Shown here: positions 1,516 to 29,570 of the stretch, in pieces
How positions within the stretch are numbered: position 1 is the first letter of the stretch
Layout of the letters: every line of letters starts with the position of its first letter
From: Bacteroidales bacterium
GTDB lineage: Bacteria; Bacteroidota; Bacteroidia; Bacteroidales; WCHB1-69
Reading direction: 5' to 3'
Assembly (NCBI GenBank): GCA_017525245.1
Contig: JAFXTE010000081.1
Span: 1 to 35,612, forward strand
Length of the DNA stretch: 35,612 bases
Notes under the pieces: generated by a model
Told to the model about the DNA's origin: nothing
Databases searched by the model: none
The model's input: only the letters and a program-made list of their open reading frames with translations
Translations under genes and position numbers: made by a program

Positions 1516-2641
1516 AATGACACTCTGCGTACTGATTGTCTTGTTAATACTGTCTCTGACTTGTGGGAACGCGCAGGAGCCGCCACGTGATTCCATCTTC
1601 CTGCATCCTGACGGGTCTGTGACGTTTCTATACCAAAACCCCGACGCGAAGTCGGTCAAGGTCTATTGCGACTGCAAGCTGCGGAAGGAGACCCCGATCA
1701 TCCGCACCGAGAATTACCATTCCGCAAAGATGTCCAAAGACAGTTCCGGATTATGGGCTTACACCACCCCACCCTTGCCACCGGAGGTTTACACCTACCA
1801 GTTCGGGAGTGACTCGCGACGTTTTCCCGACCCCACCAACCCCGACTCCATCCGCGTGCGCTGCGAGAAGATGAGTGTGTTCACCGTTGGCGGTACCCCG
1901 CAAACCGACCTCTATCGCGCAGAACCGCTTCGTGGTCATCTGGACACGTTAGAGTTCCAAAGCCGCAACGAGACCGTGACGCGGCGCATCATCGTCTATA
2001 CGCCGCCGCAATATACGGAGGGCAACCGCCAGTTCCCCGTCCTCTACCTGCTGCACGGGCTCAACGGAAACGAGACGGCTTGGAATGACCGGGGACGCGC
2101 CGCGCAAATTCTCGACAACCTCATCGTCCAAGAGAAAGCGAACCCGATGATTTTAGTGATGCCCGATGCCAACCCCCGATGCCTGATAGGACAACGGGAA
2201 GATGTCAGCCTGTTCAAGAACCTCCTTCTCTATTCTTCCTGGGACAAGATGGAGTTCGAGAAATGCTACCCCGAGATGGACTCGCTCCTCAGCAGCCGTT
2301 ACCTTTTCTCAACACGTGCAGGCTGCCGCGCCGTGGCCGGTTTGTCAGCCGGCGCGAAGCAATCCGCCAACCTTGCCAACCTTTACGACAGCACTTTCTC
2401 GTCCATCGGACTGTTCTCGCCAGTAGTCGGGAAAAAGCAGTTGCCGCAGAGCACTTATTCCCAATATTGGATCAGCAGCGGCACAGGTGACCTCTTCCGT
2501 CTTCAAATCAACAAATTCTGCAAGAAGATGCAGCGCAAACACATCCCCTACACGATGTACAGCTCCGCAGGCGGCCACACCTGGCGCAACTGGCGTGTCT
2601 ATTTCTCGGAGTATGTGCGGACGTTGTTTTGGCGGGACTGA
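1499..2641 (+). CDS. Secreted alpha/beta-hydrolase esterase (PF00756 type)
   Basis: A 380-aa exported esterase of the enterochelin/feruloyl esterase family. The start at 1499 gives a proper signal peptide (MKNLNK then a Leu/Ile/Val core, ending near CGNAQ). The upstream ATG at 1466 would add charged residues translated from the glycosyltransferase tail. Residues about 30-130 form a beta-rich E-set/CBM48-like domain, and the rest is the hydrolase. Visible catalytic elements are YLLHGLNG (oxyanion region), nucleophile S283 in GLSAG, D331 in GTGD and H360 in GGHTWRNW. Known relatives cleave feruloyl or acetyl esters on plant xylan, or siderophore esters; the substrate here is unknown. The stop codon is followed two bases later by the GATGARGC ladder leading into the next gene. 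Confidence 0.85.
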   Translation: MKNLNKMTLCVLIVLLILSLTCGNAQEPPRDSIFLHPDGSVTFLYQNPDAKSVKVYCDCKLRKETPIIRTENYHSAKMSKDSSGLWAYTTPPLPPEVYTYQFGSDSRRFPDPTNPDSIRVRCEKMSVFTVGGTPQTDLYRAEPLRGHLDTLEFQSRNETVTRRIIVYTPPQYTEGNRQFPVLYLLHGLNGNETAWNDRGRAAQILDNLIVQEKANPMILVMPDANPRCLIGQREDVSLFKNLLLYSSWDKMEFEKCYPEMDSLLSSRYLFSTRAGCRAVAGLSAGAKQSANLANLYDSTFSSIGLFSPVVGKKQLPQSTYSQYWISSGTGDLFRLQINKFCKKMQRKHIPYTMYSSAGGHTWRNWRVYFSEYVRTLFWRD

Positions 2642-2642
2642 C

Positions 2643-2720
2643 GATGAGGCGATGAAGCGATGAGGCGATGAAGCGATGAGGCGATGAGGCGATGAAGCGA
2701 TGAAACGATGAATGAAACGA
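2643..2720 (+). repeat. (GATGARGC)n tandem array / minicistron ladder
   Basis: About nine copies of an 8-bp unit GATGAGGC or GATGAAGC fill the gap between the esterase stop and the PCMD start. Each unit reads ATG-ARG-CGA-TGA, and each TGA overlaps the next ATG as ATGA. The final ATGs belong to the downstream gene. Confidence 0.9.
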
Positions 2721-3772
2721 TGAATAGTAAGCGAAATAGAAGGTTGTGGCTCGTAATGACGGGCTTAATTATCCATTATCAATTATCCATTATCAATTAC
2801 GCTGTCGCACAGACGCAGATGGCGAACCGCGATTTCGAGCAGTGGACGAGCGTCGGGAAGGGCGATGCCGTGCCTAAGCAGTGGCACTCTTACGGTGACG
2901 CGGACTGCCAGCTGAAGGGCATCTACTCGTGGGGGTGCGGTCCGATGACCAAGAACCACAGCAACCGCGTGTCGGGCCACACGGGCTACGGCTGCGAGAT
3001 CCAATCGACCTCGCTCGCGGGCAATATCGTCAACGGGGTGCTCACCACGGGACAGATGCAGTTCGCCTCGACGGACAACAAGAACCCCGACAACTGCACC
3101 TACAGCGACAAGGACAACAAATGCGGGCACAAGGCCGCCATGGCTTTCACCGGCCGCCCCGACTCGGTCTATTTCTGGTGCAAGTTCGACATGAAGAAGC
3201 CCTCCAATGTGGCCGTCGCGAAGTTCCACCTCCACGGCAACATAGCGTACAAAGACATATCGACACACACTCCCGCCACGGCGCAGAAAGGCAAGATCGG
3301 AAACGCTTTTTGCGAGTTCAGAGACCCCAACGACGGGAAATGGCACCAATACAAGTTCGCCTTCACCTACTATGACGAACAGAACCGTGTGGTGAAGACC
3401 GCCACGCGCACGCCTTCGTACATCCTGGCCTGCTTCTCCACCAACAAGATCGCCAAAGGCGGCCACTCGGGCGACAAACTGTCCATCGACGACATCGAGA
3501 TGGTGTATAACAAACGGTTGTCCTATTTATATATAAATGGTATAGCACTACCGGATTTCGACCCTGACCGAACCGAATACAGTTATAGCTGCAATAGTGT
3601 TGTCACGCCTGTGGTCGAAGCCGAGGCGCAATCGCCAAATGCCCAGATGCGAATTGAGCAGCAAGACCGAAGCATCCGTATTGTAGTGATTCATGACGAC
3701 GGGGAAAAGGTTTATACGATTGCATTGTCGGCGAATTATGCGAATTATGCGAATTTTTCGATGAAGCGATGA
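2708..3772 (+). CDS. Secreted PCMD-family protein
   Basis: This 354-aa protein is predicted to be exported. Its body (about residues 35-275) matches the putative carbohydrate metabolism domain (PCMD, PF13201) found next to Bacteroidota polysaccharide-utilisation and surface genes: NRDFEQW at the start, NGVLTTGQMQF in the middle, RPDSVYFWCKF, and a late KLSIDDIEMVY strand. The C-terminal 75 residues form a small beta domain (YLYINGIALPDFDP) resembling a cadherin-like or DUF4971-like repeat. Molecular function of PCMD is not established. Start alternatives are 2708 and 2720, both inside a GATGARRC array. The signal-peptide core (LIIHYQLSIINYAVAQ) and the last ten residues (ending NYANYANFSMKR) are encoded by intergenic-type repeats, so both ends of this gene appear repeat-derived. 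Confidence 0.72.
   Translation: MNETMNSKRNRRLWLVMTGLIIHYQLSIINYAVAQTQMANRDFEQWTSVGKGDAVPKQWHSYGDADCQLKGIYSWGCGPMTKNHSNRVSGHTGYGCEIQSTSLAGNIVNGVLTTGQMQFASTDNKNPDNCTYSDKDNKCGHKAAMAFTGRPDSVYFWCKFDMKKPSNVAVAKFHLHGNIAYKDISTHTPATAQKGKIGNAFCEFRDPNDGKWHQYKFAFTYYDEQNRVVKTATRTPSYILACFSTNKIAKGGHSGDKLSIDDIEMVYNKRLSYLYINGIALPDFDPDRTEYSYSCNSVVTPVVEAEAQSPNAQMRIEQQDRSIRIVVIHDDGEKVYTIALSANYANYANFSMKR
2766..2802 (+). repeat. ATTATC-type tandem repeat inside the signal-peptide region
   Basis: Two copies of ATTATCCATTATCAATT lie in tandem within the 5' coding part of the PCMD gene and supply the hydrophobic segment. Related units recur in spacers elsewhere in the window. Confidence 0.75.
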
Positions 3773-7465: not shown

Positions 7466-7539
7466 GGGGCGTTAGCTCAGTTGGCTAGAGCGTTTGACTG
7501 GCAGTCAAGAGGTCGTGAGTTCGATTCTCATACGCTCCA
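7466..7539 (+). tRNA. tRNA-Ala (GGC)
   Basis: A 74-nt cloverleaf: acceptor GGGGCGT/ACGCTCC, anticodon loop CTGGCAG with anticodon GGC (reads GCC), and T-loop GTTCGATTC. The G3-U70 wobble, the alanine identity element, is present. CCA is not encoded. It lies 34 nt after rpsJ with no promoter box of its own visible, so it may be processed from the str transcript. Confidence 0.97.
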
Positions 7540-7580
7540 CATAATGTTAGACTGAGGACTGAGGACTTGAGACTTAGGAA

Positions 7581-7613: not shown

Positions 7614-7646
7614 GCGATGAAAACGATGAGACGATGAAGCGATGAT
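7614..7646 (+). repeat. GATGARRC array
   Basis: Four units (GATGAAAAC, GATGAGAC, GATGAAGC, GATGATCC) follow the terminator, the same family as at 2643 and 27721. Here no gene start follows on this strand. Confidence 0.75.
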
Positions 7647-7685: not shown

Positions 7686-8120
7686 CTACTGCTCTACGTT
7701 ATTCTTGCTGTAATAATTGAGATCAACGCGCTCGGTCCAACCCTGCATCTGCCAGAACTTGTTGCCGATTTCGTTGTTCTTCAGCACCAATAGGCCATTC
7801 TTTTTGATGCCCTCCTGTTCGATGGCATGATAAACCATGCCGAGGAGCGCCTTGCCGATACCGCGCTGACGCAAATCCTTGCGCACGACCGTATGGTAGA
7901 TGTAAGCGCGGCGTCCGTCCATGCCGCACATAATCACGCCGACAATCTCGCCGTCCATCACCGCAACGAAATTGGAGGTTGGGTTCTTTTTCAAAAACTT
8001 GGCGATGCCTTCAGCGGAGTCGTCATAACCGCGCAACGCCATTCCTTCGGTAATCGACCACAACGCATACACCTGCTCGTAGTCTTCAATCGTCATCAGT
8101 CTGATTTGATACTCTTGCAT
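7686..8120 (-). CDS. GNAT-family N-acetyltransferase
   Basis: 144 aa with start at 8120. It belongs to the GCN5-related acetyltransferases, which transfer acetyl from acetyl-CoA to an amine; the substrate is unknown. The fold order is visible: IRLMTIEDYEQVYALW (beta1-alpha1), FVAVMDGEIVGVIMCG (beta2-3), YIYHTVVRKDLRQRGIGKAL (beta4 and the Q/RxxGxG/A acetyl-CoA loop), then NGLLVLKNNEIGNKFWQMQGW with the typical late N..A/F...GF/W pattern. A -7 box (TACATTTG, 8144-8151) puts the transcript start near 8138, which leaves almost no leader for the ATG at 8135 and excludes longer forms, so MQEYQIRLM at 8120 is preferred. Divergent from the gene at 8252. Confidence 0.85.
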   Translation of the reverse strand: MQEYQIRLMTIEDYEQVYALWSITEGMALRGYDDSAEGIAKFLKKNPTSNFVAVMDGEIVGVIMCGMDGRRAYIYHTVVRKDLRQRGIGKALLGMVYHAIEQEGIKKNGLLVLKNNEIGNKFWQMQGWTERVDLNYYSKNNVEQ

Positions 8121-8143
8121 AACTGGAATTTTCATTGAAGGCG

Positions 8144-8151
8144 CAAATGTA
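8144..8151 (-). promoter_or_regulatory. -7 box TACATTTG for the GNAT gene
   Basis: A perfect TAnnTTTG on the minus strand 24 nt upstream of the preferred start at 8120. It decides the start choice. Confidence 0.6.
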
Positions 8152-8222
8152 CATAAATTTCGAATACATGCTGACAAGTGAAATTGAAGAAGAACGACAC
8201 ACTTTTCACTCTGAAAAAATTG

Positions 8223-8230
8223 TATTTTTG
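8223..8230 (+). promoter_or_regulatory. -7 box TATTTTTG for the gene at 8252
   Basis: A perfect box 22 nt before the ATG at 8252, so an upstream in-frame ATG at 8135 would not be on the mRNA. Confidence 0.65.
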
Positions 8231-8251
8231 CACATTCAACCTCTATCCTCA

Positions 8252-8971
8252 ATGGTCACAAAGAAGAAAGAAAAACCGCAAATCATCTCGTTGGACGCAT
8301 TCGGGAGCGCCAAAGATTACTGGCTCTGCTGGGTGCAATCGCCGCTGTCGCATTTCCCTTTCGCCGCAAGCGTGCAAAAACAATTCGGGTATCCATGCAG
8401 TTATATCGGGGACATCAGCCTCGAAGATATTCACCCCGACCTGAAGTTTCCGATGTACTTCACCAACTTCAACGTGGATTACGATGTAAATCTGGTCATT
8501 CTGGCGAACCACGTCACGGCTCCCACCACATTATCCATGGACCAGCAAAATCCGCTGTTAGGAGGGCTGCTTTTTGAAGACGAATACTATCTTTTCAACA
8601 ATCAAGGGCTTACAAAAATCCCTTTCTCTTATCCGCAAGCGGATTTCCTGTATCTGCTCTCCACAGACAAACAGGCGGACATCACCGACTACATCGAACA
8701 GCTTCCGTTGATTCCAGACACCAAGATAATATGCCAGGACACGCCTAAACAAATGGCAGACAGCCAGAAAAAAAGCAAACAAGTATTGGATTTCCTGCAA
8801 TACTTGTTCTACGAATCAGAAGCAGCGGTGAAAGAATTCCGTCAACGGAAACTATCCCAACAGCTGCACCACAAGATGTCAGTGGCCGAAACCAACTACG
8901 GGTATTTAAGATTCCCCGTAGAGGATAACAGAACGATTACCAGCAATTTACTAAGAAGAGAAGACTATTAA
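8252..8971 (+). CDS. Uncharacterised Bacteroidota protein (possibly IPExxxVDY-like)
   Basis: A 239-aa cytoplasmic protein without signal or membrane segment, starting MVTKKKEKPQIISLDAFG. The arrangement YWLCWVQSPLSHFPFAASVQKQFGY, then MYFTNFNVDYDVNLVILANH, then LFEDEYYLFNNQ and ADFLYLL recalls the small IPExxxVDY family of Bacteroidota, but the signature itself is not intact and this protein is longer, with a C-terminal extension rich in Gln, Lys and Arg. Function is unknown. The start follows from the promoter box at 8223. Its TAA stop overlaps tail-to-tail with the cstA stop (shared TTAA, 8968-8971). Confidence 0.7.
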   Translation: MVTKKKEKPQIISLDAFGSAKDYWLCWVQSPLSHFPFAASVQKQFGYPCSYIGDISLEDIHPDLKFPMYFTNFNVDYDVNLVILANHVTAPTTLSMDQQNPLLGGLLFEDEYYLFNNQGLTKIPFSYPQADFLYLLSTDKQADITDYIEQLPLIPDTKIICQDTPKQMADSQKKSKQVLDFLQYLFYESEAAVKEFRQRKLSQQLHHKMSVAETNYGYLRFPVEDNRTITSNLLRREDY

Positions 8972-25602: not shown

Positions 25603-25621
25603 CCGCTTAATTACTTTTGAA

Positions 25622-27247
25622 ATGAGAAACGACAATAATAGACGCAGAAACCACCGCAGGAACGACGGTGATGAACTTCAGAAAGAGACCCATGCGAACG
25701 TAAATACAACTGATAACAAGAACGTTGAAGATAAGGCGGCGAAAAAGGCGGACCGCCCGGAGCCTACGCAAAACGAGGCACCCAAAGAGAAGGAAAAAAT
25801 CGCGGATAAAGAACAAAACAAGGGGAAAGGGCAAGAGGCGGACAAAGGACAAAACGCTGACAATAACCGCAATCGCAAAGACAACAACAACCGCCGGCGC
25901 GAGAAAAACAAAGCCAAAGGCGAACGGCTGCTGAAAGATCCCTCCCTTGAGCATTCCGAAGATGAGACGGAAGAAGACCGTGAGTATTTCGACACGATGA
26001 CCGCCGAGGAGTTGGAGGAGGCCACCAAGAGTCTGCGGCGGAAGACCGCTGCCATTGACAAACAGGATCTTGAAAGCAACGTCCCGTCACAAGGCGAAGA
26101 TTGGGAGCAATATCTCGATATCGACATCCGCACTGGTGTGTCACATGAGGCCGGCAAAATTGCTGCCAACATCTTCCACACCCGTGGTTTGAAAGATCTC
26201 CCGAATCCGGAACACGCGCATTGCTCGCAATACCAGTACAGTTCCTGCAAGCTGCCCTCCATGAACTGGATGGACAACCTCGAGATCGGACTGGAGCATC
26301 TGGAGTTCCCCATCGCCGAGGTGCGCTTCAAAAACAGCCACAAAGATTTCTTCTTACTGCCGCCAAATGCCACTATCAAGGTGGGCGACATCGTGGCTGT
26401 GGAGGCCAACACCGGTCACGACATCGGCATTGTCTCCATGCTCGGTTTACAGGTACAGCGGCAGATGCAGGCCAAGCACGTGAAGCCGGAGGATGTCACG
26501 AAAAAACTCTACCGGCACGCCCGCTATGCCGACATCGAAGAGTGGATCGCCACCGTCGATAAGGAGTACACCACCATGCTCTCCTCGCGCTACACAGCTT
26601 GGGACCTGGATTTGAAGATGAAAGTCAACGATGTGGAGTACCAAGGCGACGGCACGAAAGCCATCTTCTACTATTCCGCCGAGGAGCGGGTGGATTTCCG
26701 CGAACTGATCAAGATTCTGGCCGAACAGTTCCACATCCGTATCGAGATGCGGCAAATCGGCGTGCGGCAGGAAGCGGCGCGCTTGGGAGGCATCGGCTCC
26801 TGCGGCCGCGAACTCTGCTGTTCGCAATGGCTCACCAACTTTCAGTCCGTTTCCACCAACACCGCCCGCACCCAGCAGCTCTCCCTCAACCCGCAGAAGC
26901 TGGCTGGCATGTGCGGCAAACTCAAATGCTGCCTCAATTTCGAGCAGGAGACCTACCAACGCGAGCTCAAAGAGTTCCCTTCCCCTCATGTGGTGCTGAA
27001 AACCCAGAAAGGCAAGGGCATATACAACAAAATTGACATCTTTAAGAAGCTGGTATGGTACGCCTATCAAGACGATCCCAACAACCTCTTCTCCATTCCG
27101 CTTGACCGGGTGAAACAGATCATTAAGATGAACGAGCAGGGCAAGATGCCCGAGAACTTAGAAGGTTTCGCCGTTGTCAACCAGAAGAAGATGGAGGAAG
27201 GCGGAAACGTCAGTGCCGAAGAACTCAAACACATTGCAGACTCCTAA
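25622..27247 (+). CDS. ricT: RicT/PSP1-domain protein
   Basis: 541 aa. RicT (YaaT), known from Bacillus as a subunit of an Fe-S complex affecting RNA maturation and development, is found across Bacteroidota next to gldH. Residues 1-130 are a highly charged, low-complexity Asn/Arg/Lys/Glu tail, probably disordered. The PSP1 core follows (FFLLPPNATIKVGDIVAVE, GHDIGIVSMLG), then the Cys signatures SCGRELCC (C394, C399, C400) and GMCGKLKCC (C431, C436, C437), candidate cluster ligands. The start at 25622 is set by the promoter box at 25595; an upstream in-frame ATG at 25385 would be encoded by the tandem arrays. Four nt separate it from gldH. Confidence 0.93.
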   Translation: MRNDNNRRRNHRRNDGDELQKETHANVNTTDNKNVEDKAAKKADRPEPTQNEAPKEKEKIADKEQNKGKGQEADKGQNADNNRNRKDNNNRRREKNKAKGERLLKDPSLEHSEDETEEDREYFDTMTAEELEEATKSLRRKTAAIDKQDLESNVPSQGEDWEQYLDIDIRTGVSHEAGKIAANIFHTRGLKDLPNPEHAHCSQYQYSSCKLPSMNWMDNLEIGLEHLEFPIAEVRFKNSHKDFFLLPPNATIKVGDIVAVEANTGHDIGIVSMLGLQVQRQMQAKHVKPEDVTKKLYRHARYADIEEWIATVDKEYTTMLSSRYTAWDLDLKMKVNDVEYQGDGTKAIFYYSAEERVDFRELIKILAEQFHIRIEMRQIGVRQEAARLGGIGSCGRELCCSQWLTNFQSVSTNTARTQQLSLNPQKLAGMCGKLKCCLNFEQETYQRELKEFPSPHVVLKTQKGKGIYNKIDIFKKLVWYAYQDDPNNLFSIPLDRVKQIIKMNEQGKMPENLEGFAVVNQKKMEEGGNVSAEELKHIADS

Positions 27248-27251
27248 CCCC

Positions 27252-27725
27252 ATGAAACGCATCACATTCATCATCGCCTGCGTCGCACTGCTATTCTGCA
27301 GCTGCAACCCGAAAACCTACTACAGCGAGGTCAAATCGGTGCCGCACGAGAAATGGGCGGTTGACAAGCCGCTGTATTTCAAGATGAACATCGAAGACTC
27401 CATGCAGTACTACAACATGTACTTCCTAATCCGCAACACCACCGACTTCGAGACGCAGAACTTTTACGTCTTCATGAGGACGAAATACCCCGATGGTCAC
27501 ACCGAGCAAGACACGTTAGGGTTCATCCTCTGCGACAAGTTCGGCAACTGGACCGGGCGCGGTCAGGGAAGGCTGAAAGACAACAAGTTCCTGTTCCAAC
27601 CGAAAGTCCGGTTCCCCTACAACGGCGAGTACATCTTCACCGTCACCCACGGCATGAGAACCGACGTGGTGGAGGGGGTGGAAAGTTTTGGGATTGTGTT
27701 GGAGAAGTTCGAGGAATCACGATGA
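27252..27725 (+). CDS. gldH: GldH-family lipoprotein
   Basis: 157 aa. A lipobox (LLFCSC) follows a short hydrophobic stretch, and the protein begins its mature part with NPKTYYSEVKSV. The order DKPLYFKMNIEDS, YYNMYFLIRNTTDFETQN and FPYNGEYIFTVTHGMR matches GldH, a lipoprotein needed for gliding in flavobacteria but kept in non-gliding Bacteroidales, where its role is unclear. No other gld genes are in the window. The position after ricT is the usual one. Its TGA stop lies within the first GATGAGGC unit of the minicistron ladder leading to the nuclease gene. Confidence 0.85.
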   Translation: MKRITFIIACVALLFCSCNPKTYYSEVKSVPHEKWAVDKPLYFKMNIEDSMQYYNMYFLIRNTTDFETQNFYVFMRTKYPDGHTEQDTLGFILCDKFGNWTGRGQGRLKDNKFLFQPKVRFPYNGEYIFTVTHGMRTDVVEGVESFGIVLEKFEESR

Positions 27726-27749
27726 GGCGATGAAACGATGAGACGATGA
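27721..27749 (+). repeat. Minicistron ladder (GATGARRC)n linking gldH to the nuclease gene
   Basis: ATG codons at 27722, 27730, 27738 and 27746. The first overlaps the gldH stop (27723-27725). Each of the first three opens a three-codon frame (ATG-ARR-CGA) whose TGA overlaps the next ATG by the ATGA pattern. The fourth ATG is the nuclease start. Confidence 0.88.
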
Positions 27750-29086
27750 AAACAAATTACCCAATCATTTCATGGTCCGCAAAAAACGCGGATGTCAAAC
27801 CGCCACAATATGGCCGTTCCAATATTCACGGTTTCTCCGATGAATATTTTTGTAACCTATTGACAAACAGCGACCTCAAATCGCTACTTCGGCGAGATGT
27901 GCTGCTTTCTGTCCCTTGTCGCGCCATTCCCTACGAACCCGCGATAGCTTTGGTGGACGAGACTAACGGCACGTTCATTGATGTGGAGATTGACGTGCCG
28001 TATCATGGATGGTATCGTTTCCCGATGCATTATGCGGAGGGCAAAGATGGTGTTCGCGACCGGTACTTTAACGAATGCGGTTGGACGGTGGTGCGGTTCA
28101 CGGAACGACAGATACGGCAACAACCGGATGCCTGCGTGGAGCTGCTCCGGAGGGTCGTTGCCACATTGAAAGGAGAAAACGAGGTACTTGACGGAATCGT
28201 GCAGCCGGAACAGCGGTGGACACAGAAAGAGGCGGTGGAAATGGAGAAGGAATTATTCCGTGAAAAGCTGCTGCAGATCCAGTCGTTCGGGCAGCCCGAG
28301 TTCCTTCCCGAACTGCGCGAGAAGGTGGCCGAGAACGATTCCCGGTCCTGCAGATCCGTCCACCCTGACATCGTCTTCAACGAGGCTTCGCACACGTATG
28401 CCGACGCCTGCAACCAGACCGGTACGGCAGACTACACCTCCGTGACCACTCTTATCGAGAAATTCTTCCCCTTCTTTGATGAGGAGGCCTACATCGAGCA
28501 CTTTATGACCGAATCGGGTAAAACCCGCGAAGAGGTCGTCCGCAAAATGCTCGAGCCCTCCGAGCGCGGCACGTTCATGCACCAGCAAATCGAATATTTC
28601 CTAAAAGGAAAACCTCACGAAGAGGATTTCAAGGAATTCCAGCTCTTCCTTAAGTTCCACGAGGAGCAGATTCTCAGGCGCGGGCTCGAATTTTACGATG
28701 CGGAGAAGATCGTCACGCTCCCGCAGTACGGCATTGCCGGCACCGTCGATGCGCTCTTCCGCAAGCCCGATGGCAACTTCGTGATGGTTGACTGGAAGCG
28801 CAGCAAGAACCTCATCATCGACGGCTATCCCAAGAAATACGGTCCCGGCCGCGGCCTCTCCATCCTCTCCCACCTTGACAACTCCAGCTACTACCACTAC
28901 GAGTTACAACAAAGTTTCTACAAGTATATCCTTGAAACCGAATACGGCATGAAGGTCTCCTCCATGATCCTCTGCGTGCTACATCCGGAATACGACCGGT
29001 ATTACACGATTAAGCTCTCCGACTACCGCGTTCAGGAAGTGCGGGAGATGGTTGCCGCGCTTATTTCTTTAAGTATCAGGCAATAG
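27746..29086 (+). CDS. Two-domain nuclease: DUF559-like plus RecB/MGME1-like PD-(D/E)XK
   Basis: 446 aa, no signal or membrane segment. The N-terminal part (about 45-130) looks like a DUF559/Vsr-type endonuclease fold: E81 and D83 in DVEIDVPYHG, then RDRYFNECGWTVVRFTERQI. The C-terminal part (about 210-445) is a RecB-like PD-(D/E)XK nuclease: SVTTLIEKFFPFF, H279 and E283 in GTFMHQQIEYFL, D335 in AGTVDALF, D349 and K351 in VDWKRSK, and QQSFYKYILETEYG. All catalytic positions of the C-terminal domain are present; the N-terminal active site is less certain. DNA processing or defence is inferred, supported by the SF1 helicase gene downstream on the same strand. The stop (TAG) lies in the first AGGCAATAG repeat unit. 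Confidence 0.82.
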   Translation: MKTNYPIISWSAKNADVKPPQYGRSNIHGFSDEYFCNLLTNSDLKSLLRRDVLLSVPCRAIPYEPAIALVDETNGTFIDVEIDVPYHGWYRFPMHYAEGKDGVRDRYFNECGWTVVRFTERQIRQQPDACVELLRRVVATLKGENEVLDGIVQPEQRWTQKEAVEMEKELFREKLLQIQSFGQPEFLPELREKVAENDSRSCRSVHPDIVFNEASHTYADACNQTGTADYTSVTTLIEKFFPFFDEEAYIEHFMTESGKTREEVVRKMLEPSERGTFMHQQIEYFLKGKPHEEDFKEFQLFLKFHEEQILRRGLEFYDAEKIVTLPQYGIAGTVDALFRKPDGNFVMVDWKRSKNLIIDGYPKKYGPGRGLSILSHLDNSSYYHYELQQSFYKYILETEYGMKVSSMILCVLHPEYDRYYTIKLSDYRVQEVREMVAALISLSIRQ

Positions 29087-29128
29087 GCAATAGGCAATAG
29101 GCAACAGGCAACAGGCAACAGGCAACAG
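29078..29128 (+). repeat. AGGCAAT/AGGCAAC array, left flank of the four-helix-bundle gene
   Basis: About seven 7-bp units, AGGCAAT changing to AGGCAAC. The first unit supplies the nuclease gene stop codon. The complement of this unit follows the next gene at 29541-29570. Confidence 0.9.
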
Positions 29129-29165
29129 AAAACAAAAGTCATATTAAATACCAAAACATTATATT

Positions 29166-29537
29166 ATGAATAAGATTAATGATTACAAAGATTTATTAGT
29201 GTGGCAAAAAGCCATGAATTTAGTGGTTGACGTATATAAAACCACTAAAATGCTACCCAAAGAAGAGGCCTACGGCTTGTCTGATCAAATGAGAAGAGCC
29301 GCAGTTTCTATTCCTTCAAATATCGCTGAAGGATATGGGCGACAAACGCCTAAAAGCTATGCCCAATTTCTAACCATTGCAAGAGGTTCCGCATACGAAT
29401 TGGAAACCCAAATACTTTTATGCCAAAAAATTCATCCCTTATCTTCGGAAATCGTTGAATCATTAACTGCCACTATTTCTGAAATAAAAAAAATGCTAAC
29501 CTCTATCATAAACAAACTTCACCAACAACTATCCTAA
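29166..29537 (+). CDS. Four-helix-bundle protein (S23/23S rRNA IVP-like)
   Basis: 123 aa of the four-helix-bundle family first seen in intervening sequences of 23S rRNA genes; related proteins (Avd) serve diversity-generating retroelements. Signatures are NDYKDLLVWQKAMNLVVDVY, PKEEAYGLSDQMRRAAVSIP, NIAEGYGRQTPKSYAQFLTI, and the final helix KKMLTSIINKLHQQL. The family is thought to bind nucleic acid; its cellular role is not established. The gene is clearly AT-richer than the nuclease and helicase genes on either side and is bracketed by inverted arrays of one repeat unit, which points to insertion as a cassette. No promoter box is seen. Confidence 0.9.
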   Translation: MNKINDYKDLLVWQKAMNLVVDVYKTTKMLPKEEAYGLSDQMRRAAVSIPSNIAEGYGRQTPKSYAQFLTIARGSAYELETQILLCQKIHPLSSEIVESLTATISEIKKMLTSIINKLHQQLS

Positions 29538-29540
29538 TCC

Positions 29541-29570
29541 CTATTGCCTTTTGCCTTTTGCCTTTTGCCT
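29541..29570 (-). repeat. Inverted AGGCAAAA array, right flank of the four-helix-bundle gene
   Basis: CTATTGCC followed by TTTTGCC units; the complement reads AGGCAAAAGGCAAAAGGC then AATAG, an inverted and slightly diverged form of the left-flank array at 29078-29128. Confidence 0.88.

Follow-up and report, generated by a model that had tools for sequence, protein, structure and literature searches.

The window, the whole 35,612-nucleotide stretch analyzed here, belongs to the 3.68-Mb genome (G000) of a rumen-type Bacteroidales bacterium and carries gldH on its + strand, followed by a nuclease-like gene. Orthologs of gldH exist in 37 of the 40 genomes of the genus. The two genes are joined by a tandem array of an octamer that forms two further arrays in the window.

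27252..27725, + strand: gldH (PF14109, 4e-33; TIGR03511), with its TGA stop in the first repeat unit
27719..27751, + strand: octamer array, (ATGARRCG)3 plus ATG, forming a ladder (read from the sequence)
27722..27733, + strand: minicistron 1, M-R-R-stop (read from the sequence)
27730..27741, + strand: minicistron 2, M-K-R-stop (read from the sequence)
27738..27749, + strand: minicistron 3, M-R-R-stop (read from the sequence)
27746..29086, + strand: nuclease-like gene, starting at the last array ATG (open reading frame; DUF559 at aa 96-136)
2642..2727, + strand: second octamer array, beginning 2 bp past the stop of a co-directional upstream gene
7615..7645, + strand: third octamer array, behind tRNA-Ala and with no co-directional gene to start

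The junction reads GAATCACGATGAGGCGATGAAACGATGAGACGATGAAAACA, with ATGs at 27722, 27730, 27738 and 27746, 8 bp apart. gldH ends in CGA TGA, the TGA (27723-27725) lying within the first repeat unit, and at every rung the stop of a minicistron and the next ATG overlap as ATGA. Close overlap (-4 or -1) of co-directional frames is therefore present rung by rung, with the minicistrons interposed. The 20-nt gap from the gldH stop to the nuclease start is filled wholly by the array, which would allow a ribosome to pass along it rung by rung. An earlier note, made from the letters of the window, had described the four ATGs, the minicistrons, the ATGA rungs and the gldH stop within the first unit, and all of these are exact on re-reading. 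Its placement of the nuclease start at the last ATG stands as well: the ORF reading of the window has the nuclease frame shut by the TGA at 27731-27733, which makes 27746 the first start available, and in G036 and G031, where this junction has no array, the aligned protein starts with an ATG at the corresponding position. The N-terminus of the nuclease-like protein is conserved among relatives, and a start at 27950 set by a codon-based gene caller was judged to be a caller error. The protein carries DUF559 near its N-terminus; towards the C-terminus, aa 305-434 resemble a Cas4 model with a score far under the cut-off.

A scan of the + strand of the window from 25619 to 27845 found no TANNTTTG element, the sequence that we take to be the consensus of the element scanned for. 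A single transcript over gldH and the nuclease-like gene is thus plausible on sequence grounds. A -7 element related to TANNTTTG is mentioned in the accessible part of PMC6847099. gldH itself opens at 27252 with ATGAAACG, one form of the repeat unit, and gene starts encoding M-K-R might have seeded the octamer.

The second array (2642-2727) sits between co-directional genes. The third (7615-7645) has tRNA-Ala at 7466-7540 ahead of it, and the gene at 7686-8252 is convergent with it. A chance origin of the arrays was rejected: ATGARRCGATGARRCGATG has 10 matches in the window and none in 100 shuffles. RNA structure was rejected too. The array RNA is weakly structured, with the centroid unpaired at 27716-27760 and 2630-2730, and no array is stable beyond shuffles (z-scores 0.25, 0.20 and 1.39). 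Downstream of the nuclease-like gene, a gene for a 23S rRNA intervening-sequence protein (29166-29537, PF05635) is flanked on both sides by heptamer arrays (window positions 29077-29570), whose units CAGGCAA (29077-29128) and CCTTTTG (29540-29570) look inversion-related.

The octamer and its junctions in related genomes

ATGARRCGATGARRCGATG occurs 125 times in the 3.68 Mb of G000, and a reversed control not at all. The four-ATG pattern exists in 10 of 104 family genomes, all belonging to one of 17 genera, with 76 matches in G000, 70 in G007, 169 in G027, 98 in G032, 23 in G038 and 1-5 in each of five others. Among the 37 gldH-bearing genomes, the gldH sequences nearest to that of G000 are those of G027, G007 and G032 (97, 95 and 92 percent, respectively); expansion of the octamer thus took place within one group of sister species. 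Period-8 arrays are mostly intergenic, 22 of 26 being covered by called genes over less than 30 percent of their length. Heptamers are plentiful in the G000 regions read, where 62 of 69 period-7 arrays lie outside genes. Orthologous octamer arrays differ in length between sister species, and their presence in four separate assemblies led to rejection of assembly error. These data identify the octamer as a lineage-specific intergenic microsatellite of unit ATGARRCG, the gldH-nuclease ladder being one of its arrays. Two G000 loci (L032 and L035, on contigs 6 and 21) share an identical array with identical flanks; with a contamination value of 6.46 percent, the G000 assembly may mix strains.

Of 30 loci read, 18 have the nuclease-like gene next after gldH. 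Between the gldH stop and the nuclease start the spacing runs from -4 (ATGA, G036) and -1 (TGATG, G031) up to 288 bp, and the two frames overlap at 2 of these 18 syntenic junctions; the close junction is not conserved. In G027, G007 and G032, gldH ends three codons later with TAA, and gaps of 39, 51 and 69 bp carry irregular CGATGA copies, as does the 48-bp gap of G028. Among the junctions read the exact ladder exists only in G000, and its closest sisters lack it.

Two other junctions keep both of their ends. At kdtA, arrays of 11 (G000), 8 (G032), 6 (G007) and 3 (G004) ATGs are bounded by the same stop and the same start, which bears out the claim that copy number can vary while both ends are kept. 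Some kdtA units read ATAA, retaining the stop and losing the start. Where relatives lack an array, this junction is TAATG (G016), TGATG (G003), +2 (G035, G033) or +3 (G013, G008). At a SpoU-type methyltransferase, the gap in all four clade genomes (G000, G007, G027 and G032) is occupied by 5 to 19 ATGs, from shortly past the stop to the start; these arrays contain several 10-bp steps and one 18-bp step, which break the -4 overlaps.

Strand and position of the arrays relative to genes

Strand and position were tallied for 115 arrays in fetched parts of G000, G007, G027 and G032, with genes called by a home-made codon-usage script. The sample comprised the first 100 of 125 three-ATG matches plus the listed four-ATG matches in G000, the first 100 of 169 matches in G027, the places listed for G007, and 98 of 98 listed in G032, minus one place (C20:272). 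Homology of the 700 bp upstream sorted the 115 arrays into 69 ortholog groups.

At co-directional junctions 84 arrays read with the genes and 8 against them; by ortholog group the ratio is 47 to 4 (p 2e-10). The arrays thus respect gene strand, as the coupling proposed in the earlier note would have it. The preference for co-directional gaps that it also expected is not clear: they hold 92 of 111 arrays and make up 431 of 543 gene pairs. The remaining arrays of the 115 lie in convergent gaps (9), divergent gaps (10) and at contig edges (4).

The most regular feature of position is contact with the upstream stop. Among 55 groups with a same-strand upstream gene, 40 have an array within 10 bp of its stop and 15 have no stop contact, on a score that counts a group when any member makes contact and that is partly self-fulfilling where the array overlaps the ORF end; often the stop lies inside the first units. 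In the TRF array set (337 kept, after dropping 11 inside genes, 30 at edges and 54 in convergent or divergent gaps), 67 of 84 sense octamers and none of 7 antisense octamers lie within 10 bp of a stop. Only 7 of 84 sense octamers come within 10 bp of a called start, so the octamer does not share the start-adjoining position of the TAACTGA type. Seventy of the 84 sense arrays stop 38-305 bp short of the next called start, distances that depend on called starts, which may err downstream. A frequent order at junctions of G000 and G027 is stop, octamer array, mixed heptamers, ATAACC heptamers and start.

Heptamers separate the stop from the ATG. In a tally confined to regions selected for octamers, 32 heptamer arrays lie 0-10 bp past a stop, of which 20 have three-frame stops in the sense direction only and 2 in the antisense direction only; the corresponding figures are 32 and 22 for 101 arrays far from both genes (Fisher p 0.007 for near-stop versus far). 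Three-frame sense stops without any ATG occur in 33 of 60 stop-contact heptamer arrays. Stop-bearing heptamers without an ATG thus behave like the octamer, so the ATGA ladder is not what the arrays have in common; the shared factor is the presence of sense-strand stops. ATAACC heptamer arrays, whose three-unit pattern exists in 26 of 104 family genomes, were all in the sense direction at co-directional junctions (37 of 37 in the fetched parts of G000, G027, G032 and G007); 25 of the 37 lie at most 11 bp from the start called next, and not one comes within 10 bp of a stop.

The octamer also occurs outside the clade. In Oscillochloris (Chloroflexi), where it is embedded in a longer dispersed repeat, the 31 arrays are not biased in orientation (4 versus 3), and none of the 16 that have a same-strand upstream gene touches its stop. 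The presence of stops therefore does not by itself enforce the pattern in every genome. Loci with the octamer inside longer repeated flanks include L093, L106 and L132 in Oscillochloris and L123, L157, L168 and L171 in Kastovskya. Other single organisms contributed 34 arrays at 32 loci; tandem junctions there hold 10 sense arrays versus 4, with gene models trained on one locus each. In seven of the 34 (L100, L102, L113, L125, L128, L163 and L183) a same-strand stop is no more than 10 bp away, which extends stop contact beyond the four clade genomes, and all seven arrays called inside genes run in the stop-free direction.

One of these loci reproduces the ladder in a distant host:

L102, about 1518-3071, - strand: Arthrobacter sp. 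MYb213 IS3-type element with a nine-ATG exact octamer ladder (frames orfA/orfB)

The first TGA of this array shuts a 166-codon frame with a weak HTH_Tnp_1 match under the cut-off, and its last ATG starts a 330-codon frame containing an integrase core. Two relatives on plasmids, with about 69-70 percent identity over the matched parts, lack exactly 64 bp at the junction and read CTGATGG or TTGATGG there, a single case that rests on a distant alignment. The sequences fit an octamer array that grew by slippage where a stop and a start overlapped.

Known counterparts and the role of the arrays

The closest published counterparts are the TAACTGA heptamers of Beggiatoaceae, Cyanobacteria and five Bacteroidetes (MacGregor 2015, PMC4679880). 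As far as the accessible part of that paper goes, both repeats are short, tandem, intergenic and sporadic among relatives, and both have gene-strand orientation (for TAACTGA, in some genomes), sense stops in all frames and copy-number indels between close strains. They differ in place, TAACTGA in BOGUAY lying mostly just upstream of start codons and the octamer just past stop codons, and in that the octamer unit, unlike TAACTGA, holds an ATG overlapping a TGA. Long simple sequence repeats with 5-11 nt units (Mrazek 2007, via PMC4679880) resemble the octamer in unit length, intergenic excess and scatter, whereas the accessible account of them mentions no unit with a stop/start overlap. Phase-variable simple sequence repeats are likewise slippage-prone tandem repeats beside genes; in the octamer, by contrast, a change of copy number shifts no coding frame and removes no stop or start, and the arrays lie outside genes. 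Each rung is also a -4 co-directional overlap like those of ATGA/TGATG gene pairs, and gene pairs that carry arrays have plain ATGA or TGATG junctions in relatives. Unlike the pairs described in the accessible parts of PMC6728339 and PMC10666635, the ladder, known here from its letters, interposes three three-codon frames. In the literature searched, beyond which most subscription papers lay, no description of such a ladder was found.

These observations suggest that the octamer is probably an intergenic repeat, oriented by strand and anchored at stops, with a unit that resembles a stop/start overlap, and that the ladder is likelier a by-product than a device for coupling. In the sense direction each unit holds a TGA, and all three frames are shut within 24 bp because 8 is not a multiple of 3; in the antisense direction the unit has no stop in any frame. 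Arrays at gene ends would therefore persist mostly in the stop-bearing direction, antisense arrays being disfavoured because they would extend the upstream protein. Slippage would lengthen or shorten arrays harmlessly, since each unit would regenerate the stop, and also the start where the array meets the next gene. The geometry of the ladder would follow from the repeat unit itself. Counting against the idea of protein extension, arrays placed past an intact stop (offset +2 or more; some TAA or TAG) keep their orientation too. The idea that the extra stops serve as an active fail-safe is ranked low because one study (PMC6764699) reportedly found no evidence for selection of fail-safe stops in eubacteria.

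The earlier note had proposed instead that ribosomes finishing gldH re-initiate at each ATGA and pass through the three minicistrons into the nuclease-like gene, in an arrangement selected because coupling survives changes in copy number. This has a minor share of the probability. Beyond the exact geometry at gldH-nuclease and the stretch of + strand without TANNTTTG, it gains from the distance involved: according to the accessible part of PMC10666635, coupling in E. coli and Haloferax drops steeply with distance and is nearly abolished at about 20 nt; across the 20-nt gap of this junction the rungs could therefore matter. Bacteroidetes rarely have Shine-Dalgarno signals, even at overlaps (PMC6728339, accessible part), and avoid AUG near starts (PMC6847099, accessible part), so an array rich in AUG next to a start is out of the ordinary. 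The kdtA and SpoU-type junctions hold both ends despite copy-number change, and the same geometry arose independently in the Arthrobacter orfA-orfB pair. In 16 arrays an ORF of at least 50 codons begins at an array ATG, which is the last one 15 times and the second last once; two of the 15 ORFs are short (55 and 57 codons), and a hand count puts about 8-10 independent groups against 1 behind these figures.

Such arrays are few, however: 103 of the 119 start no ORF of at least 50 codons from their own ATGs. Besides the 16 that do, another 16 arrays reach one only via irregular steps between ATGs, no longer than 16 nt. Arrays also occur in convergent and divergent gaps, ATG-free heptamers occupy the same position, the SpoU steps of 10 and 18 bp break the overlaps, and the ladder is not conserved at gldH. 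Nor are array ATGs specially conserved. Among 44 variant units, scored where flanked by canonical units, the three ATG sites have 14 mismatches versus 9 at the two CG sites, so that start-destroying variants are as frequent per site as others. Strand orientation, the last-ATG bias and the kept ends at kdtA thus stand from the earlier interpretation, the last-ATG rule for only the 16 of 119 arrays that open such an ORF. Coupling as the general role of the arrays does not, the shared feature being stop contact. Stepwise re-initiation is possible, judging from the sequences, as a permitted side effect at gldH-nuclease and perhaps ten other junctions, rather than as the selected role of the family.

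A stronger form of the same idea is decidedly unlikely. Here an array running from stop to start (gldH-nuclease, kdtA and several others) would act as a copy-number rheostat, each added unit imposing one more obligatory termination and re-initiation, and the same invention would have been made independently in the actinobacterial IS3-type element. If so, slippage would change the downstream-to-upstream protein ratio by geometric steps, and frame, stop and start would never be lost.

It is more doubtful still that the arrays are RNA- or DNA-level elements bound by a protein. Their strand orientation and weak RNA structure agree with this, and for TAACTGA MacGregor proposes binding by S1, Csp or Csr proteins (PMC4679880, accessible part), but copy number and spacing change fast and heptamers of many differing sequences occupy the same place. 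Insertion of a mobile element carrying the octamer, which the longer repeated flanks in Oscillochloris and Kastovskya would suit, was rejected as highly improbable because upstream homology divides the 115 clade arrays among 69 groups and the G000 and G027 junctions inspected share no flank.

Read as a stop-anchored repeat, the octamer, like the heptamers, has a place and direction that track gene punctuation: stop-bearing arrays come after gene ends, and ATAACC heptamers before starts. This points to a simple rule governing which short repeats are retained when a genome is compact. The kdtA series, with 3, 6, 8 and 11 ATGs in four species, is a natural set for serial re-initiation in hosts that rarely use Shine-Dalgarno signals.
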